Origin: a virus
Direction: 5' to 3' (one strand)
Length of the DNA stretch: 28,368 nt
Virus record (IMG/VR): IMGVR_UViG_3300021598_001024
Coordinates: 1-28,368 of that record
Below, one piece after another: positions 4,139 through 28,368 of the stretch (within the stretch, counting starts at the first letter, position 1; each line of letters begins with the position of its first letter). The notes beneath the pieces were generated by a model. That model had not been told where the DNA came from. It did no database searches and worked only from the letters and a program-made list of their open reading frames with translations. The position numbers and the translations under genes are program-made.

Positions 4139-5247
4139 TTTTTTTCCTCGTCCATAAAGGCGGCGGGGATGAGTTTCTTGAACTCCAAAGGCAGCGTGAT
4201 GTTCGCCGCAGAAAGTACGGGCCGGATGCCGTCGAGCAGGATTTCCTGGAAAGGCAGGATGACCGTCTTGAGCATCAACTCATAGGCATCCTTCATCTCG
4301 TCCGCGTTACTTCCGAATCCCGTATCCCCTCGCAACCCAAAGAGAAGAGGCGAGGTCACCCGATGGCCCGACAGCACCTTGAGGCTGACCTCTTTGGAGA
4401 GGTAGTCGTACAGGCGATGAGGGTCAGGGATGTTGAACGGCTCGACCGTCGGAGCGTTCTCTTTGTCGTCGTTGTAGACGATAAGCATCCTTCCTGCGTT
4501 TTCCGCCCCGCTGAATTTTGCGTTGATGGCACGCTCCATTTCCACCCGCTCGTCGTCCGTAGGCTGCCCGTTATTGAACGAAATCATCATCGAAGGGAAC
4601 AGGCCGTTCTTGATGCTGGCGAGGTGGTAATCGGCGATGTTTTTGTCCAACTCGATATACTTCGTCGAACCCACGTAATCCGGGATGCCGTAGTAGAAAT
4701 CGATGGGGCTGTAAACCTTGATATGAATCAGGTGCGAAGCGGCCGTGCGGTCGTCCGTGCTGAAAGCAGGGATGGGCTGTGGCTCGCTGCGGCCTGCGTT
4801 GACCTCCGCCCAGTTCGTCGAGTAGTAGAACGTGGGAACTTGGTCTTGGTCGTCGGCCTTTCCGCAACGCACGTACGAAGCAGGGACGTGATTGGTCTCT
4901 GCGATGGTGCTGCGGTCTTGGCTCCAAATCACTTGGAAGTAGCAGTTGCCGTACAACTTGAGGTCGTGGGCGGCACGCTTCATACAGTCCTTTTTAAACA
5001 GCCCCTGCAACTTAAGCCACTGGTCGACGTGGGCATCCTTGTCGGGGGAGTCCAACCCTTCCCCGTAAATCATGTCCCCGATGCCTTTGATGATGGCCGA
5101 ATTGATGGCCGAACTAATGTACAAGTCCTCGAGGTAGTAGGGGTAGGCGTTGTCGTCGCCAAAGAACGCCCACTCCTTGTTGTTCGTGATGAACGCGCTG
5201 CCTAACTCCGGCCCGTAATTGAGGACGCTTAATGAAATCTTAGTCAT
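4081..5247 (-). CDS. Phage portal protein (frame-0 product)
   Basis: A 388-aa protein with portal-like features: an N-terminal part with ISSAINSAIIKGIGDMIYGEG, a central wing with LKLYGNCYFQVIW and a long stretch SPIDFYYGIPDYVGSTKYIELDKNI, then a stem-helix region (LSGHRVTSPLLFGLRG, MLKTVILPFQEILLDGI). The portal forms the dodecameric ring at the packaging vertex and binds the terminase. The frame-0 product ends only 18 residues after an A9 run. At that run a phased A_AAA_AAA heptamer (4144-4138) could shift translation into the downstream frame. The start ATG overlaps the previous stop by 8 nt. Unusually, it lies after the capsid gene and far from the terminase. Confidence 0.8.
   Translation of the reverse strand: MTKISLSVLNYGPELGSAFITNNKEWAFFGDDNAYPYYLEDLYISSAINSAIIKGIGDMIYGEGLDSPDKDAHVDQWLKLQGLFKKDCMKRAAHDLKLYGNCYFQVIWSQDRSTIAETNHVPASYVRCGKADDQDQVPTFYYSTNWAEVNAGRSEPQPIPAFSTDDRTAASHLIHIKVYSPIDFYYGIPDYVGSTKYIELDKNIADYHLASIKNGLFPSMMISFNNGQPTDDERVEMERAINAKFSGAENAGRMLIVYNDDKENAPTVEPFNIPDPHRLYDYLSKEVSLKVLSGHRVTSPLLFGLRGDTGFGSNADEMKDAYELMLKTVILPFQEILLDGIRPVLSAANITLPLEFKKLIPAAFMDEEKKTSVVSNRREFQIVKQKCG
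4137..4145 (-). other. Candidate -1 ribosomal slippery site in portal gene
   Basis: Minus strand reads GAG GAA AAA AAA ACT in the portal frame. The heptamer A AAA AAA (4144-4138) is in the canonical X XXY YYZ phase, after portal codon 370. Slipping back one base gives AAC and enters the open frame that ends at 3485. I see no clear downstream hairpin, so a sequencing indel or strain-specific frameshift mutation remains possible. Confidence 0.5.
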
Positions 5248-5590
5248 CTACGTAGACGTGGTTAGGGCTTTGGGCGGGGTTGTACTCGACAAATGTACTC
5301 TCCGTCAGAGGGGTTCCGTTGCAGACGTAAGCCAAATGTCTCTGCAACAATGGCCCTGCTACGGTCTCATTTACTCCCACAATATACATCCCTTCAGGCA
5401 ACCCCTCGAAATCGTAAATGTACTCGGTAGCACGCTCGGTGACGCTGTTCACGTCGATGTCGAAGGTGAACGTCTCTTGAGTTACAAGATGCTTGAAATC
5501 GAAGAAGTTTCTGTCTCCCGCCAGGGCAGTCGGGTAGTACAAATAGAAGGTTGTATAGTTGTCTTTGCCTTGTGTTGTGATGAGTATCAT
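5240..5590 (-). CDS. Small structural-region protein, unknown function
   Basis: A 116-aa beta-rich protein starting MILITTQGKDNYTTFYLYYP. It contains the pattern YDFEGLPEGMYIVGVNETVAGPLL, which I recall from small proteins near head/tail connector genes of Bacteroidota phages. There is no signal peptide or membrane segment. It is the first gene after the terminator hairpin at 5604-5635 and overlaps the portal start by 8 nt, so it is probably co-expressed with the portal at a lower level than the capsid gene. Its role (connector, decoration or neck) cannot be decided. Confidence 0.6.
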   Translation of the reverse strand: MILITTQGKDNYTTFYLYYPTALAGDRNFFDFKHLVTQETFTFDIDVNSVTERATEYIYDFEGLPEGMYIVGVNETVAGPLLQRHLAYVCNGTPLTESTFVEYNPAQSPNHVYVDD

Positions 5591-5603
5591 GTCTCAAAGA
5601 TGC

Positions 5604-5635
5604 AAAAAAAGGGGCAGCACTTTTGCCGCCCCTTT
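5604..5635 (-). terminator. Rho-independent terminator after tail tube gene
   Basis: On the minus strand a 9-bp stem (arms 5624-5632 and 5611-5619, one G-U pair, 4-nt loop) is followed directly by seven T (5610-5604). The flanking A/T bases can lengthen the stem to 12 bp. It lies 19 bp beyond the tail tube stop and 14 bp before the next start. This is the best terminator in the window, and it sits inside the structural operon. Confidence 0.85.
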
Positions 5636-5654
5636 CCACTTGACCAAATCAACC

Positions 5655-6209
5655 TTATACAGCCGCAACCACCGCAATGCCATCAATGGCACTGAATGGG
5701 TTGGCTGCTGTTCCGGCTGCGCCATAGTAGCACATCTGACGTTCACGGCCCGTGAACTCCAGCGTGATACCTTTCATATCATTCATCGCAGTTCCTGAAG
5801 CAAAGGAACCGCTGGTCACATCCATGCCGTTACGCGCACCCAACAGATAGAGTTTGTCATCGTTGTCGAGTACCCAAATGTTTGGACGGCCATAGGTGAG
5901 GTTCTGTACCTCTTCGATGTCCGTTGCATCGGGATGCTGCAAAACGATAGTCAACTTTTGGCTGTAGTAGTACGTGCCGTTGTTGATGTCCGTAGAGATG
6001 CTGATGTCAAAATTTGACAACTCCGGCCGCAGTTGATACTCGTAGACGGACAAGTCCGACCCCGAGGTCACAATCGTGATGGTGTTGCCCGTGGCGACAA
6101 ATCCCGTTTGAGCGGGAATGTCCACGTAGTTTTGAATGTACACCTTACGGATGCCGCCTAACTGATTCTTACAATCAATTGAGCGGCCCGCTGTAATGTT
6201 ACAAGGCAT
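5655..6209 (-). CDS. Major tail tube protein (probable)
   Basis: A 184-aa protein starting MPCNITAGRSIDCKNQLGGIRKVYI. The dCK..GGI.KVYI opening, the middle block FDISISTDINNGTYYYSQKLTIVL, and the later blocks PNIWVLDNDDKLYLLGARNGMDVTSG and GITLEFTGRERQ form a beta-sandwich pattern that I recall for tail tube proteins of Bacteroidota phages. Placement right after the major capsid gene and before a strong terminator fits a second highly expressed virion protein. The tube subunits would stack around the tape measure protein encoded at 10742-12811. Alternative: a head decoration protein. Confidence 0.65.
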   Translation of the reverse strand: MPCNITAGRSIDCKNQLGGIRKVYIQNYVDIPAQTGFVATGNTITIVTSGSDLSVYEYQLRPELSNFDISISTDINNGTYYYSQKLTIVLQHPDATDIEEVQNLTYGRPNIWVLDNDDKLYLLGARNGMDVTSGSFASGTAMNDMKGITLEFTGRERQMCYYGAAGTAANPFSAIDGIAVVAAV

Positions 6210-20395: not shown

Positions 20396-21592
20396 TCAGG
20401 TATTGGGTAGAACGTTCGTTGCTTCTTTGGTGGCTTTCTTGCCAGTGAACTCTTCCCACCGCTTTACGATGACGTCGCAGTACTTGGGGTCGAGTTCAAT
20501 TCCGTAGCATGCTCGCCCTGTTTGTTCGGCGGCGATGACGGTGGTGCCTGAACCCAGGAAAGGGTCGTACACGATTTCTTTGGGCTGTGAGGAGTTGACC
20601 ATCAGGTAGGTAAACAACTCTACGGGCTTCATCGTTGGGTGGTCGGCGTTCTTGCTCGGCTTGTCGAACTCAAGGATGGTGGTCTGCTTGCGGTCGCTAT
20701 ACCATCCGTGTCCTGCTCCGGCCTTCCACCCGTAGAGGCAGGGTTCGTGCTTCCACTGGTAATCTTGGCGGCCCATCACCAAGGCGGACTTGTTCCAAAT
20801 GAGGCATTGCTTTACCTCTTGGCCGCAGTCTTTCACTGCCCCTCGGAAGTTGTACCCTTCGGAGTCGGCGTGCCAAATGTAGAAGGCTGCCCCTTCGTTC
20901 ATGTTCTCGAAGGAGAGTTGCAGGAACTGAAAGAGGAAGGTGCGGAAGTCGGAATCGCTCATGGAGTCGTTTTCGATTTTCAACTTCTCCTTTGTGCCTC
21001 CTTGGTAGTCGACGTTGTAGGGTGGGTCGGTGAGGAGGAGGTTTGCTTTCTGCCCTGCCATCAGTTGCGCCACGGTGTCCGGCTCACGCGAATCTCCGCA
21101 GATGAGTCGGTGGTTGCCCAGCACGTAAACGTCCCCCAGTTGTGTGGTTGCCTCTTTGGGTGCGGCGGGAACCTCGTCGGGGTCGGTGAGTCCTTCCTCG
21201 GTCTTCTCGGGCACCCACACGTCGAGACCCCACGCTTCCAACTCGGCGGCATCCCACTCGTTGGCCAGGATATCCCAGTCCCACTCTCCGTAGCCTACGT
21301 TGTCTTTGATGATAAACTGGCCGTTTTTGTCGCTTTCCCAGTTGGCGATGTAGACGGGCACCTCTTTGAGTCCTGCTTCGAGGCACGCTTTGAGGCGCAT
21401 GTTGCCGCCCAAGACCACCCCGTCGGGGGAGCAGACGATGGGACGCGCTTCGAGCATCTCCGGGAAGTCGCGGATGGATTGTACCAACTTGGCAAACTTG
21501 TCATCCTTGATGACTCGCGGGTTGGTGGGGTTGGGTATCAGTTTGGTTGTTGGCCACAACTGAAAGGACTGCGGGTGCTGTTTGGTCTTCAC
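20396..21592 (-). CDS. ParB-domain fused DNA methyltransferase (N6-adenine/N4-cytosine)
   Basis: A 398-aa protein with GTG start coupled to the upstream stop (GTGA). Residues about 15-85 are a ParB/Srx-like domain (LIPNPTNPRVIKDDKF, VVLGGNMRLKACLEAG). Residues about 155-385 are a class-beta amino methyltransferase: catalytic DPPY at 189-192, HPTMKP at 318-323 and the AdoMet-binding VYDPFLGSGTT around 341-351, followed by YGIELDPKYCDVI. The target base could be adenine N6 or cytosine N4. It likely modifies phage DNA to resist host restriction; its position next to the terminase genes is common for this fusion. No matching endonuclease is visible. Confidence 0.9.
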   Translation of the reverse strand: MKTKQHPQSFQLWPTTKLIPNPTNPRVIKDDKFAKLVQSIRDFPEMLEARPIVCSPDGVVLGGNMRLKACLEAGLKEVPVYIANWESDKNGQFIIKDNVGYGEWDWDILANEWDAAELEAWGLDVWVPEKTEEGLTDPDEVPAAPKEATTQLGDVYVLGNHRLICGDSREPDTVAQLMAGQKANLLLTDPPYNVDYQGGTKEKLKIENDSMSDSDFRTFLFQFLQLSFENMNEGAAFYIWHADSEGYNFRGAVKDCGQEVKQCLIWNKSALVMGRQDYQWKHEPCLYGWKAGAGHGWYSDRKQTTILEFDKPSKNADHPTMKPVELFTYLMVNSSQPKEIVYDPFLGSGTTVIAAEQTGRACYGIELDPKYCDVIVKRWEEFTGKKATKEATNVLPNT

Positions 21593-22550: not shown

Positions 22551-22943
22551 TTAGGTGATTGCTTTGATTAATTCCTGTATCTCTTTGTTGTAGTGGTCAA
22601 TCCATTGTTGAGCGTTGTCCTCGCTCATCTTGAGGACACGATGGCTTTTGACCATCAACTGCTCCGCTGTGCCTTCCCCGTAGATTCCGTCGAGACGGCA
22701 TCCAAAGATGTACTGCTGTCCGTTGCCGTAGAGGTTGCAGGCGGGGCATTGGGGCTTGACGTTCATGTCGTCCCAACGAGTCGCGTACTTGGCCCGCGTC
22801 ACAAAATGGCCTGCGTGCATCTTTGTCCAGTGGTTGCTTTTGCCACAGGTGAAGCACGCAACTATCCCTGCGTGGTCGGCATCCTTCATGCGCACCCACT
22901 TCGAAAAAACGGTGTCTAACTTCTTGCGTGTTGGTGCTTTCAT
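22551..22943 (-). CDS. ninG: NinG/Rap-like zinc-binding recombination protein
   Basis: A 130-aa protein; ATG 22943 overlaps the methyltransferase stop (ATGA) and is preferred over 22955. It has a zinc-finger/HNH-like core: CFTCGKSNHW (CxxC), then MHAGHFVTRAKYATRWDDMNV, then CPACN (CxxC), matching the lambda NinG (Rap) family, a Holliday-junction/recombination nuclease. It is shorter than lambda NinG, lacking much of the N-terminus. Its coupling to a DNA methyltransferase might suggest a restriction pair, but the NinG signature argues for recombination instead. Confidence 0.75.
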   Translation of the reverse strand: MKAPTRKKLDTVFSKWVRMKDADHAGIVACFTCGKSNHWTKMHAGHFVTRAKYATRWDDMNVKPQCPACNLYGNGQQYIFGCRLDGIYGEGTAEQLMVKSHRVLKMSEDNAQQWIDHYNKEIQELIKAIT

Positions 22944-23698
22944 TGCTTCGCGCATTCAATGGCGCGAAATAACTGAAAAGCAAGTTGAGGAACAATAGCA
23001 TTGCCGTACGCCTTTAAGGATTCGTTGCGCCACTTTGAAAAGGTAACTCCGTCCAGTTCGCGGGGAAGCCCATCATCTCCGCTACAAAGCGGGGATTGAG
23101 ATGAGAAGTTTTCCCACGGGTTGGGTCGTGCATCGCGTGAGCCAGCGTGTCTCTTTGCCTTGTTGGGTCGGGCCTCGTGCACCCTCCCTTGGGGTCGCTG
23201 GTTGCCGTTGGCGTAGGAAGCCACCCACCAAATTCTGTCCCGTCGGTGGGGTGCGCCGACACCAGCAGCCGGAAGGATACCCGTCCAAACCTCGTACCCC
23301 AAATACTCCAAGTCAGCGCACACCTCTTCGAAGACCACTCCCCCGTTCCAATTAAGCAGGCCGCGTACGTTTTCGCCCACAACGTAGGCCGGGGCAACCT
23401 CGAGTATGATGCGACACATTTCGGGCCACAGGTGGCGTTCGTCGTCCTTTCCAAGTCGCTTCCCTGCGCTTGAGTAAGGTTGGCAGGGGAATCCTCCGGT
23501 GAGGATGTCCACGTGTCCGCGAAAAGGTCTACCGTCGAATGTTTTGACATCGCTGAATGCTTGTGAACCTGGAAAATGGTGTGCCAGTACGCGCTGGCAA
23601 AAGGGGTCTCTTTCCACGTGGAAGACGTTAGTCCACCCCATCCACTCGGCAGCGAGGTCGAACCCGCCTATCCCCGAGAAAAGAGACCCATGCCTCAT
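22940..23698 (-). CDS. dcm: C5-cytosine DNA methyltransferase
   Basis: A 252-aa enzyme with the ordered Dcm motifs: I SLFSGIGGFDLAAEW (residues 5-19), IV GGFPCQPYSSAGKR with catalytic Cys72, VI GENVRGLL (108-115), VIII APHRRDRIWWVAS (149-161), a short target-recognition region (about 162-225), and X SLKAYGNAIVPQLAFQLF (227-244). All catalytic residues are present, although it is shorter than typical (300-400 aa) because the target-recognition region is compact. ATG 23698 overlaps the upstream stop as ATGA; an upstream TTG/ATG extension in this frame is antisense-like. It probably protects phage DNA from host restriction. Confidence 0.92.
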   Translation of the reverse strand: MRHGSLFSGIGGFDLAAEWMGWTNVFHVERDPFCQRVLAHHFPGSQAFSDVKTFDGRPFRGHVDILTGGFPCQPYSSAGKRLGKDDERHLWPEMCRIILEVAPAYVVGENVRGLLNWNGGVVFEEVCADLEYLGYEVWTGILPAAGVGAPHRRDRIWWVASYANGNQRPQGRVHEARPNKAKRHAGSRDARPNPWENFSSQSPLCSGDDGLPRELDGVTFSKWRNESLKAYGNAIVPQLAFQLFRAIECAKQ

Positions 23699-23868
23699 CG
23701 CTTTGTGGCGTAGTATGCCCCGCGTACTTTCTCGCGGATTTGATACTTGAAGTCGTCGAGGATGCGCTCCAACTCGCGTTCGAAGTTCATGTCCTCGTGC
23801 CACTCATTGAACGACCCCGGTGAACGGTCGGGTTCGCTCGTGCTGTGTACTTTCAGGTGGTTAGGCAT
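23695..23868 (-). CDS. Small protein (57 aa), unknown function
   Basis: A short gene filling the gap between the 84-aa gene and the methyltransferase. ATG 23868 overlaps the upstream stop by 8 nt and its stop overlaps the methyltransferase ATG by 4 nt. The product begins MPNHLKVHSTSEPDRSPGSF and ends in an amphipathic basic/acidic helix (FERELERILDDFKYQIREKV). It has no recognised family. Tight coupling on both sides supports translation. Confidence 0.65.
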   Translation of the reverse strand: MPNHLKVHSTSEPDRSPGSFNEWHEDMNFERELERILDDFKYQIREKVRGAYYATKR

Positions 23869-24562: not shown

Positions 24563-24783
24563 GCCGTCTCTTTGTCGAAGAGTTTACACTTCAACTCGTA
24601 ACTGTCTGCCGCTCGCTTGGCATCCCAGTTGTCGATGAAGAGGAATACCATGTCTCCATCGGGGGCGGTGAACTGCAACCCCAATTTCCATCCATCGATG
24701 GGATCGAAGAAGGTCTCCGTCACAAACCCGCGTGCCTCGTAATGTCCTGCGGCCGCGATACACATCTCTTTTGTCAGTTCCAT
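24559..24783 (-). CDS. Small early protein, unknown function
   Basis: A 74-aa protein starting MELTKEMCIAAAGHYEARGF, helix then beta strands (WKLGLQFTAPDGDMVFLFID), ending in an acidic/basic helix. Its start codon and second codon lie inside a 20-bp leader sequence identical to that of the next upstream gene (24778-24797 and 25000-25019). No family recognised. Confidence 0.6.
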   Translation of the reverse strand: MELTKEMCIAAAGHYEARGFVTETFFDPIDGWKLGLQFTAPDGDMVFLFIDNWDAKRAADSYELKCKLFDKETA

Positions 24784-24797
24784 TGTTCGTTGTTTGA
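24778..24797 (-). repeat. Conserved 20-bp early-gene leader, copy 2
   Basis: Minus strand TCAAACAACGAACAATGGAA, ending with ATG and the second codon of the 74-aa gene. Identical to 25000-25019. Likely a translation leader in a phage without Shine-Dalgarno sequences. Confidence 0.7.
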
Positions 24798-24798
24798 G

Positions 24799-25005
24799 TC
24801 ATTTTTGCGCGAAAAAAGCAAATGCTTCCTCTTCGCTCTTGAATTTGCATAAAGTTGCGCCCATTATTTCACCGGGGACAATAAGTTCCAAATGCCATTG
24901 TGCTCGCGTTCCAATTCCATATTTTTTTAACAGGAGCGTCGGCGTTTCGCTGATATCGATTTCGTACTTCGTTGGCGAAATCTCCCAAATTTGAATGTGT
25001 TCCAT
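24799..25005 (-). CDS. Small early protein, unknown function
   Basis: A 68-aa protein from ATG 25005 (MEHIQIWEISPTKYEIDISE onward). An in-frame ATG at 25047 lies upstream of the promoter and is rejected. It looks like a small alpha/beta protein: strands, the segment TRAQWHLELIVPGEIMGATL and a final helix (KSEEEAFAFFAQK). It is the first gene after a strong promoter (25025-25055) and shares its leader with the next gene. No family recognised; early expression suggests a host-interaction role. Confidence 0.65.
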   Translation of the reverse strand: MEHIQIWEISPTKYEIDISETPTLLLKKYGIGTRAQWHLELIVPGEIMGATLCKFKSEEEAFAFFAQK

Positions 25006-25019
25006 TGTTCGTTGTTTGA
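25000..25019 (-). repeat. Conserved 20-bp early-gene leader, copy 1
   Basis: Identical to 24778-24797; covers the leader, ATG and second codon of the 68-aa gene. Related leaders precede the genes starting at 22148, 26213 and 26837. Confidence 0.7.
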
Positions 25020-25024
25020 CGCAC

Positions 25025-25055
25025 CAAAAATAGTCATTGTTCCTCAATATCCAAA
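25025..25055 (-). promoter_or_regulatory. Bacteroidota-type promoter
   Basis: Minus strand has TTTG (25055-25052), a 19-nt spacer and TATTTTTG (25032-25025), a full match to the Bacteroidota TTTG/TAnnTTTG consensus. The expected start point is near 25018, giving a leader of about 13 nt before ATG 25005. It partly overlaps the end of the upstream gene. Confidence 0.75.
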
Positions 25056-25612
25056 CTTGGGGTTGGATTTTTTTCCCAGTATTCTCTGAGGCGGGTTCCG
25101 CTCCCCACGAATGGTCGGCGTTCGTCTTTCAGCGTGGCGGCCAACTGACTCAACCCAAGGGGCTGAAGCGGCCCCGTCGCCTCGAAGGTCTCCTTGTGCT
25201 GGGTCTCCAAAATCTCCGTGCGGATGTTGCCTTCGTAGGTTCGCAAGGCTTCCAAGATTTCGGCGGTCTTCAGTCGCTCGTACATCTTGATGAGTTGGCC
25301 CTTGCGAATCATGTCAAAGGCCACGCGCACCTCCTCCAACTTGATGGCCGGAAACTCCTCGAGGATGGCTCGGCAGGTGAAGATGAAGTCATCGTTCGTC
25401 GTGAGCGTTTTGTTGGCGTCTACGTCCCTGCAAAGCCTCCCTACCTCGGCGACAAGCCATGCCCGCGTTTCGTTGGGCATCTCCTTGGCCGCACGTTGGA
25501 GATTCGTTCCACCCTGCCAAGCCAGGGCAGGCGTGAGTTTGACGGGCTCACCCTTCAGCAATGAAGTCGTGGAGGCCGTCGGCCGTAACTGTAGGTTGGT
25601 ATCCTTTGTCAT
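25034..25612 (-). CDS. Replication-associated protein, helicase-loader-like (DUF6633-like)
   Basis: A 192-aa protein starting MTKDTNLQLRPTASTTSLLK, overlapping the initiator gene by 65 nt. The core FIFTCRAILEEFPAIKLEEV, then VAFDMIRKGQLIKMYERLKT and LEALRTYEGNIRTEI, resembles DUF6633-like proteins that I recall beside replication initiators in Bacteroidota phages, where a helicase-loading role has been suggested. The C-terminal part is Pro/Arg-rich and acidic. No Walker motif is present, so it would act as an adaptor to host DnaB rather than an ATPase. Confidence 0.6.
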   Translation of the reverse strand: MTKDTNLQLRPTASTTSLLKGEPVKLTPALAWQGGTNLQRAAKEMPNETRAWLVAEVGRLCRDVDANKTLTTNDDFIFTCRAILEEFPAIKLEEVRVAFDMIRKGQLIKMYERLKTAEILEALRTYEGNIRTEILETQHKETFEATGPLQPLGLSQLAATLKDERRPFVGSGTRLREYWEKNPTPSLDIEEQ

Positions 25613-26213
25613 GTTTCAGGGGGAAAAAGCCTTTCCAAGAGTTAGCCAAAGATTGATGAATGATTTGAATAGCCACGCTTTCGTTGCCTTTGGCGAGGTT
25701 CATTAAGCGGGTGAAAGCAGCGCGGGCTCCCCGCCCAGTGTAGGATTCCTTCCTCTCTTTTTTGTCTGCAAGCCACTCCGCCCACGCTTCCGCCAAAACC
25801 TCTCCCATCCGAATTTCACTCTCCTTTGTTTTCTCAAGTGTATTCTCTATATTGTTATCTATAGTGGACAATTTGGCGACCCTTGCCTCGCCAATTTGTC
25901 TACCCTCCCTCGCCAATTTGTCTACCCCCATCGACAAATAGTCCACCCCGTGCGTGGTCAGGACGCGACGGTTCCAGTCCGCCTGCTTCACCAAACCCGC
26001 CTCTTTCAACTTCGAGATGGCCCTTGTGATTGACCGCTCGCTCACGCCAAATTCGTCAGCGACGGTCTTGTTCATCTTTACCCATCCACGGTTCTCTCCC
26101 GACACGGAATCGATGTCCGCCCACAGCATCTTGTCAATGGCTGTCAAGGAGGGGTGGTTGATGATTTGCCGGGGAATCCAAATCCCCTTGAACACCTTGA
26201 ATTCGTTTGACAT
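25548..26213 (-). CDS. Replication initiator (O-like, HTH)
   Basis: A 221-aa protein starting MSNEFKVFKGIWIPRQIINH. Residues about 20-80 carry a winged HTH (SLTAIDKMLWADIDSVSGE, KTVADEFGVSERSITRAISKLKEAGLVK), of the HTH_36 / phage replication type. Residues about 88-130 are a linker, and the C-terminal domain (SYTGRGARAAFTRLMNLAKG, IIHQSLANSWKGFFP) resembles the end of phage initiators. The linker DNA contains the iterons and AT-rich tract described at 25825-25948, as in lambda O, so the protein probably binds its own gene to start replication and recruit the helicase loader downstream. Confidence 0.75.
   Translation of the reverse strand: MSNEFKVFKGIWIPRQIINHPSLTAIDKMLWADIDSVSGENRGWVKMNKTVADEFGVSERSITRAISKLKEAGLVKQADWNRRVLTTHGVDYLSMGVDKLAREGRQIGEARVAKLSTIDNNIENTLEKTKESEIRMGEVLAEAWAEWLADKKERKESYTGRGARAAFTRLMNLAKGNESVAIQIIHQSLANSWKGFFPLKHDKGYQPTVTADGLHDFIAEG
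25825..25948 (-). other. Putative origin of replication (iterons plus AT-rich tract)
   Basis: On the minus strand, two identical 20-bp copies of GGGTAGACAAATTGGCGAGG (25908-25927 and 25886-25905, 22 bp apart) are flanked by a degenerate direct copy (25929-25948, 15 of 20) and an inverted core (25867-25879, 12 of 13). The adjacent 25825-25863 is about 77 percent A+T over 39 bp in an otherwise balanced genome. The 22-bp period is not a multiple of three, so the repeat is at DNA level, not protein level. Confidence 0.7.
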
Positions 26214-26460
26214 AGTCGACCTCGTTTGTTGTTTGAAGAATCATGTCCATCACTACGCTTGGCGGGGTGTCGGTGGCCGCACACAACTCCGGAAGTATGG
26301 TTAAAAACTTCCGAGGGTCGTCCGCAAGCCACCGATTAAACGTCTTCCGCGTTTTGCCAAACCACTCCTCTGCGATTTGGATTTCACCCCAGTGCGCTCG
26401 CAAGAACGCACGCAACGTCAAAATGGGGGACTTTGGGTGGGTGCTTGATAGGTCTCCCAT
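26134..26460 (-). CDS. Small early HTH-like protein, unknown function
   Basis: A 108-aa protein from ATG 26460, overlapping the upstream gene by 43 nt. A TTG at 26421 overlaps the upstream stop as TTGA and would give a 95-aa protein starting at TLRAFLRAHWGE, which may be the true start. The core IQIAEEWFGKTRKTFNRWLADDPRKFLTIL resembles a helix-turn-helix with a recognition helix; the C-terminus is Pro/Asp-rich. It may regulate early genes or bind the origin. Confidence 0.55.
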   Translation of the reverse strand: MGDLSSTHPKSPILTLRAFLRAHWGEIQIAEEWFGKTRKTFNRWLADDPRKFLTILPELCAATDTPPSVVMDMILQTTNEVDYVKRIQGVQGDLDSPANHQPPLLDSH

Positions 26461-26837
26461 TGGTCGCGAATTTTGCTGAGTTCAATAGCCAAGTTTTTCA
26501 CGTTGTCGAGCGTGTGCGGCATCGGACAATAGTCCGGGTCGTTATTCTTGAGGAATTGGATGGCCGCGTTAATCGCCCACTGGCGTTCGATGACCTGCTC
26601 CCTCCCTCCGGACTGGGGCCGTGCCTGTTCAGGCTTTTTTACCTTGCCGTGGGGCACTCCGTTGAACTCCCGAGTCACCTCTATCTCCACCATATCGCCT
26701 GGCTTGAACGGACTCTTGGGTTCTTTGTGGTTGGCCACCAACCACGTGTTGTCTTCGAATTGGTACTCGAACTTGTACAAGGTTCCGTACTGCGAGTCGA
26801 AGGTTCCCGCTCCCTGAATCAACTGAATCTTTTTCAT
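26418..26837 (-). CDS. First early gene, OB-fold-like protein (possible ssDNA-binding)
   Basis: A 139-aa protein starting MKKIQLIQGAGTFDSQYGTL; an in-frame ATG at 26915 lies in the control region and is rejected. The first 65 residues form an OB-fold-like beta pattern (TFDSQYGTLYKFEYQFEDNTW, GDMVEIEVTREFNGVPHGKV), followed by a Pro/Gln/Gly linker and a helical tail (AINAAIQFLKNND, VKNLAIELSKIRDQW). It resembles small nucleic-acid-binding proteins seen at the start of early regions. It is the first gene after the 130-bp control region. Confidence 0.6.
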   Translation of the reverse strand: MKKIQLIQGAGTFDSQYGTLYKFEYQFEDNTWLVANHKEPKSPFKPGDMVEIEVTREFNGVPHGKVKKPEQARPQSGGREQVIERQWAINAAIQFLKNNDPDYCPMPHTLDNVKNLAIELSKIRDQWETYQAPTQSPPF

Positions 26838-26905
26838 TCGTGCGTTGTTTAACATTGCAAACGTACGCACTTCCAACTGAAAGATTGCTACCTGTTCCCT
26901 AATTT

Positions 26906-28202: not shown

Positions 28203-28333
28203 TTCCCTTGGCCGCGATATGGTTTGAAGTAATTCTTGCTGCTCTTCAGTTGCGATTGTTTCGTTTTCGCGTGTACACCCGGCCGGGATACTTCCCGCTC
28301 AATCCGCTGTACGATTTTTTGTGCTTTAGCCAT
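28199..28333 (-). CDS. Small basic conserved protein across the contig junction
   Basis: A 44-aa highly basic protein, starting MAKAQKIVQRIEREVSRPGV and ending SSKNYFKPYRGQGK. The ending resembles a small basic protein that I recall from Bacteroidota phages near lysis genes (SKNYxKxYxGQG pattern). It overlaps the upstream stop by 8 nt and the next start by 4 nt (GTGA). In the circular genome it links the fibre region to the lysis block. Too short for usual gene cut-offs. Role unknown; nucleic-acid or ribosome binding is possible from charge alone. Confidence 0.7.
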   Translation of the reverse strand: MAKAQKIVQRIEREVSRPGVHAKTKQSQLKSSKNYFKPYRGQGK

Positions 28334-28368
28334 TGGGCACAAGTTCTGTGGGTACGTCCGGGGGAACT
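28278..28368. repeat. Terminal direct repeat, right copy (circular overlap)
   Basis: Exact duplicate of the first 91 bases. It contains the start of the small basic protein gene (ATG at 28333) and the last codons of the gene that ends at base 49 in the left copy (its stop is repeated at 28326-28328). Confidence 0.9.

Follow-up and report, generated by a model that had tools for sequence, protein, structure and literature searches.

The window analyzed here comprises a whole virus record, 28,368 bases long. Since a 91-bp terminal direct repeat is identical at both ends (positions 1-91 and 28278-28368), the genome is probably complete and belongs to a circularly assembled or terminally repeated phage. 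Its other genes encode a terminase, a portal protein, a NinG/Rap-like endonuclease and methylases. A DNA methylase gene (20399-21592, minus strand; N6_N4_Mtase, 1.9e-25) carries an N-terminal ParB-like domain (ParB_N, 6e-4), and a C-5 cytosine methylase gene is present besides it (22943-23803, minus strand; 1e-44), thus there are two methylases in this phage. The leader AAACAACGAACAATG is repeated in two perfect copies on the minus strand (24781-24795 and 25003-25017) and more weakly at 26220-26234 and 26836-26850. Its copies end at or near the start codons of small genes, and it may act as a signal for translation or as a promoter; matches to its loose pattern (14 counted vs 9.5 expected) are within chance. 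A scan for sigma-70 promoters was uninformative (one found vs 2.3 expected).

The O-like replication initiator gene occupies 25548-26213 on the minus strand, and some 2.5 kb separate the origin proposed within it from the assembly joint. The product (221 codons, 221 aa) is predicted to consist of a winged helix-turn-helix (HTH), a disordered linker and a helical C-terminal domain. It had been called initiator-like from the sequence alone, and profile searches agree: the C-terminal part matches phrog_678, annotated as 'replication initiation O-like' (4.2e-11), and the N-terminal HTH part matches the initiator HTH families phrog_270, phrog_186 and phrog_428. The AlphaFold2 model (m056506cea8c6) is of modest overall confidence, with a mean pLDDT of 70 and a pTM of 0.38. 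According to its secondary structure, the winged-HTH domain spans aa 15-87 (25953-26171, minus strand) and contains the predicted recognition helix, aa 59-71 (26001-26039), with the codons of R64 at 26022-26024 and of R60 at 26034-26036. The disordered stretch (pLDDT < 50) covers aa 89-132 (25818-25949) and the C-terminal helical domain aa 138-190 (25644-25802), the latter being replaced by unrelated domains in some relatives.

The stretch coding for the disordered linker contains the entire array of repeats together with an A+T-rich tract, so the placement of the repeats between the HTH and C-terminal domains, as originally described, holds in the model. The array comprises four 17-bp quasi-palindromic units on the coding (minus) strand, with steps of 21, 22 and 23 bp. 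Iteron 1 (GTGGACTATTTGTCGAT, 25930-25946) is the degenerate copy already recognized in the sequence-only reading. Iterons 2 (25909-25925) and 3 (25887-25903) have the same letters, GTAGACAAATTGGCGAG, and with their flanks they form the two identical 20-mers CCTCGCCAATTTGTCTACCC reported earlier at 25908-25927 and 25886-25905, 22 bp apart. Iteron 4 (GTCGCCAAATTGTCCAC, 25864-25880) had been described as an inverted core; the site is indeed present, but it is better read as a fourth quasi-palindromic unit, which looked inverted because the repeat unit itself is a quasi-palindrome with the ideal dyad GTAGACA-AAT-TGTCTAC. At the position of iteron 4, the relatives L005-L008 carry the perfect dyad GTAGACAAATTGTCTAC. 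The four sites are therefore confirmed, whereas their division into three direct repeats and one inverted repeat gives way to four dyads. The array is followed, toward the 3' end of the gene, by the A+T-rich tract (25825-25863), a proposed unwinding element. Its A+T content, previously estimated at about 77 percent, was found to be 76.9%, the highest of any 39-mer in the genome.

The array is far above chance and unique in the genome. Its detector score is 19, whereas 5000 codon shuffles peaked at 9, 3000 codon permutations preserving the protein peaked at 15, and the runner-up array elsewhere in the genome scores 6. GC skew, which had been suggested as a check, showed no clear inflection at 25.9 kb.

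Conservation of the iterons in relatives, to which the sequence-only reading had tied its fate, was observed in both near and distant ones. In L002-L004 (98-99% identical) all four iterons are unchanged. In L005-L008 (82-83% identical) there are five units with steps of 21, 21, 22 and 23 bp, the extra unit lying upstream and the geometry being otherwise kept; comparable additional iterons have been described for Stx-phage origins (PMC7466680). The two nearest clades, with 86% identity between their proteins, differ at 4 of the 35 codons open to synonymous change in the origin stretch vs 52 of 142 such codons outside it (Fisher p=0.004). Their longest stretch without any difference measures 48 nt (25818-25865) and covers the A+T tract. 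From 433 confirmed relatives, a profile search yielded 80 loci, the majority with less than 45% identity to the initiator protein. Among the 58 non-redundant loci of this first set, about 53 carry a significant array at the same place in the linker; for 49 of the 53, the 40 bp 3' of the array rank within the gene's top 5% for A+T. A held-out set of 61 loci, collected from four different seeds and cleared of redundancy with the first set, gave similar values, with arrays in 55 loci and a 3' A+T tract (gene's top 5%) in 51 of these 55. Significant arrays with steps of 20-23 bp were also detected in the cultured phages Cruim01, Skulduggery, HU1 and LspM-01. Their initiators, homologous over the full length in Cruim01 and over the N-domain in the other three, are about 25-39% identical over the aligned parts, and their iterons have other sequences; no earlier notice of their origins was found in the literature searched. 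A Vibrio phage match sharing only part of the protein had no significant array, and a scan of genome contigs confirmed no prophage relatives.

The repeats might in principle be protein-level repeats of the disordered linker, with the repetition of the DNA as a by-product. Iterons 1 and 2, one 21-bp step apart, are in the same reading frame and encode GVDYLSM and GVDKLAR, and related linkers such as VDKLTRAVDKLTR appear repetitive. Because this first pair is in frame, the original argument that the spacing places the copies in different frames, and that selection hence acts on DNA, holds only in part; it applies to the remaining units, which are read in different frames. However, the dominant step among the relatives is 22 bp, which is not a multiple of three (103 of 148 steps in the first set, the others including 21 steps of 21 bp and 20 of 23 bp; 80 of 153 in the held-out set), permutations of codons encoding the same protein never equalled the score of the array, and the linker is predicted to be disordered. 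The 22-bp step and the permutations led us to reject the protein-level explanation, which we regard as extremely unlikely.

An RNA element in the initiator mRNA, such as an attenuator or a hairpin regulator, has also been considered. The minus-strand RNA folds better than shuffled sequences (z=-4.2) and terminator-like stems are present in the stretch, but in 53 relatives the fold signal is equal on the sense and antisense strands (mean z of -3.20 and -3.16, respectively), the stems vary among relatives, and the lambda ori behaves alike, as expected of DNA dyads. Furthermore, no match was obtained with Rfam, nor in the tRNA scan. The strand symmetry of the fold signal led to the rejection of RNA structure, and such an element is barely conceivable as the explanation of the array.

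A closely similar arrangement is known from phage lambda, whose O protein binds iterons located centrally in the O gene; a neighbouring A+T tract opens and the host helicase is loaded (PMC5043065, PMC7466680). With the array detector, the lambda O gene (NC_001416, 38686-39585) scores 17, as compared with 19 here, with steps of 20, 24 and 23 bp and an A+T content of 0.80 starting 3 bp after the array. Both loci have four imperfect-dyad iterons, placed centrally in the initiator gene with a mean step of about 22 bp. In both, about 40 bp of A+T-rich sequence follow in the 3' direction of the gene, and the next gene overlaps the initiator gene. On the other hand, the iteron sequence is different, the C-terminal domains of the two initiators match different PHROGs with none shared, and in lambda O is followed by P, while the next gene here is not P-like and has no phrog_109 match. 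The likeness to lambda O/ori initially proposed thus extends to the architecture, but not demonstrably to homology of the C-domain or of P. With regard to phrog_678, lambda O matches at 4-216 (1.7e-35) and our initiator best at 223-290, i.e., opposite halves of the family, which are bridged by the match of the relative L022 (58-313, 1.9e-17). In architecture, and probably also in its N-domain, the initiator resembles lambda O. Since neither its C-domain nor its downstream gene shows a detectable relation to those of lambda, it is, judging from these comparisons, not an orthologue of lambda O.

A second likeness concerns the RepA_N plasmid initiators of the pSK41 type, which also have a winged-HTH N-domain and an origin within the initiator gene, although they belong to plasmids and not to phages. 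Among its better structural matches, Foldseek aligned the initiator N-domain with 4pql, 4pt7 and 5kbj, named as initiator or Rep-DNA complex, with a probability of 1.00 and an E of only about 0.03; we take these structures to be RepA_N proteins. The Pfam RepA_N domain (PF06970) was absent from the initiator at E up to 0.1. In pSK41-type RepA_N initiators, the Rep boxes are central in the rep gene, the linker is encoded by the origin and the C-domain interacts with the host (PMC5703833). Origins inside initiator genes already have precedents in lambdoid phages and, among plasmids, in the RepA_N group with pSK41 (PMC5703833).

It may also be asked whether the site is an operator or a partition site, at which the initiator or another protein regulates transcription or segregates a phage-plasmid instead of starting replication. 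Repressors too use a winged helix on dyad sites, and a plasmid-prophage relative, Leptospira phage LE1, has parA and parB genes. Yet, just as in lambda, the site is flanked by a conserved A+T tract and lies in the middle of a gene; among PHROGs with an assigned function, the initiator protein matches replication initiators most strongly; no ParA was found in the subset of gene products scanned, and the ParB-like domain belongs to the DNA methylase. We thus consider this possibility very unlikely. As to LE1 itself, the N-domain of its Orf5 (Rep; L391:1916-2458) is 45% identical over 72 aa to the family member L025, and the LE1 rep gene has been used in replicating Leptospira biflexa shuttle vectors, with a rep-deleted control (PMC4338851). 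The array detector found no iteron array in the Orf5 gene, and the origin of LE1 may lie elsewhere.

Evidence concerning recognition of the iterons by the initiator comes from covariation among the relatives. Iteron similarity tracks N-domain similarity when the C-domain is controlled for (partial Mantel r=0.36, p=0.0005). In a per-column test controlling for overall N- and C-domain similarity (permutation 99.9% limit of 0.29), the residues best predicting the iteron sequence were 64 (r=0.56) and 60 (r=0.39), the next best reaching 0.18; both lie on the predicted recognition helix, at a distance of four residues. The hypothesis relating residues to bases was written before the held-out search, in which residue 64 again ranked first of 68, with r falling to 0.26, and residue 60 was only 8th. 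Where residue 64 was Arg, the fifth half-site base was C in 28/28 cases (held-out 14/14), as opposed to 0/6 (held-out 0/10) for proteins with other residues. Among Arg64 proteins, Arg60 was accompanied by A or C at the preceding base in 16/16 cases (held-out 3/3), as opposed to 2/12 (held-out 1/11) for those without Arg60. These counts include only odd-centred dyads passing the register rule, with A required at the next half-site base; dyad registers are ambiguous for Asn60 and for some even-centred arrays, which were partly left out. In a tree built without columns 64 and 60, residue 64 changed about four times and the base about five times, with five joint changes, and Fisher p-values overstate the residue-64 association because the independent changes are few and the effective sample is small. 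The covariation of recognition helix and iterons is indirect evidence that the initiator binds the iterons.

In addition, domain swaps are seen in several relatives. In L022 and L078 the N-domain and the iterons are shared (0.98-0.99) and the C-domain is not (0.30). Including the pairs L048/L066 and L023/L073, N-domain and iteron similarity is 0.89-0.99, while the C-domains are unrelated (0.19-0.30), and the joint of the swap sits just beyond the origin. Such swaps are as expected if a fixed pairing of N-domain and origin is required and the C-domain serves separately for recruitment. On balance, we slightly favour a code, spanning a large and mostly uncultured family of O-like initiators, in which residue 64 would fix one half-site base (C with Arg64, mostly A with others) and residue 60 the preceding one (A or C with Arg60, mostly T with others), together with an exchange of C-domains that would use the origin as a recombination joint.

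The next gene (25034-25612, minus strand; 192 aa) overlaps the initiator gene by 65 bp and is by position a candidate helicase loader. It matches phrog_35728 and phrog_29547 and, weakly, DUF6633. Related genes occupy this slot in most relatives, with either type of C-domain. In other relatives it is taken by IstB/DnaC-like (L061, L067, L088), G39P (L076, L087) or DnaB (L064) genes, and by annotation it holds a DnaC-like loader in Skulduggery and a helicase in HU1. In L064, the DnaB-type helicase gene (4804-6147) directly follows the initiator, in the slot held elsewhere by putative loaders. The predicted fold of the 192-aa product (pLDDT 77.5) gave a meaningless best PDB match (E=0.67), and profile comparison with G39P loaders gave a probability of 1.5%. 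Since neither fold nor profile matches a known loader family, the designation as loader is a positional one; as the slot holds putative loaders or helicases in other relatives, the role is plausible.

We believe that the array and the A+T tract very probably constitute the phage replication origin, located inside the initiator gene, which would fire as follows. The N-terminal winged helix of the initiator would bind the four dyad iterons, its recognition helix reading the half-sites, with Arg64 tied to C and Arg60 to the A or C before it. As the units are about two helical turns apart (21-23-bp steps), the bound initiators would form a nucleoprotein complex, which may strain and finally open the adjacent A+T tract at 25825-25863. 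Recruitment of the host helicase would then fall to the C-terminal domain, probably together with the next gene's product. The array, the dyads, the A+T tract, their conservation, the covariation and the domain swaps were established by computation; binding by the initiator, unwinding, helicase loading and firing of the origin we infer by analogy with lambda. A lambda-type reading is well supported, since arrays, steps of about 22 bp and an A+T tract on the same side recur in relatives. Neither the family-wide array nor the residue-base rule was found in the literature covered by a limited search.

Origins of uncultured phages are rarely known, and in this family the sequence by itself suffices to locate the origin in over 100 non-redundant relatives. 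If the code is true, origin specificity would be readable from the protein, and natural variation would predict which initiator reads which origin, with relevance to incompatibility, satellites and phage-plasmids. Finally, swaps at the origin may be a way for phages to trade the helicase-recruiting part while the initiator and its origin are kept matched.
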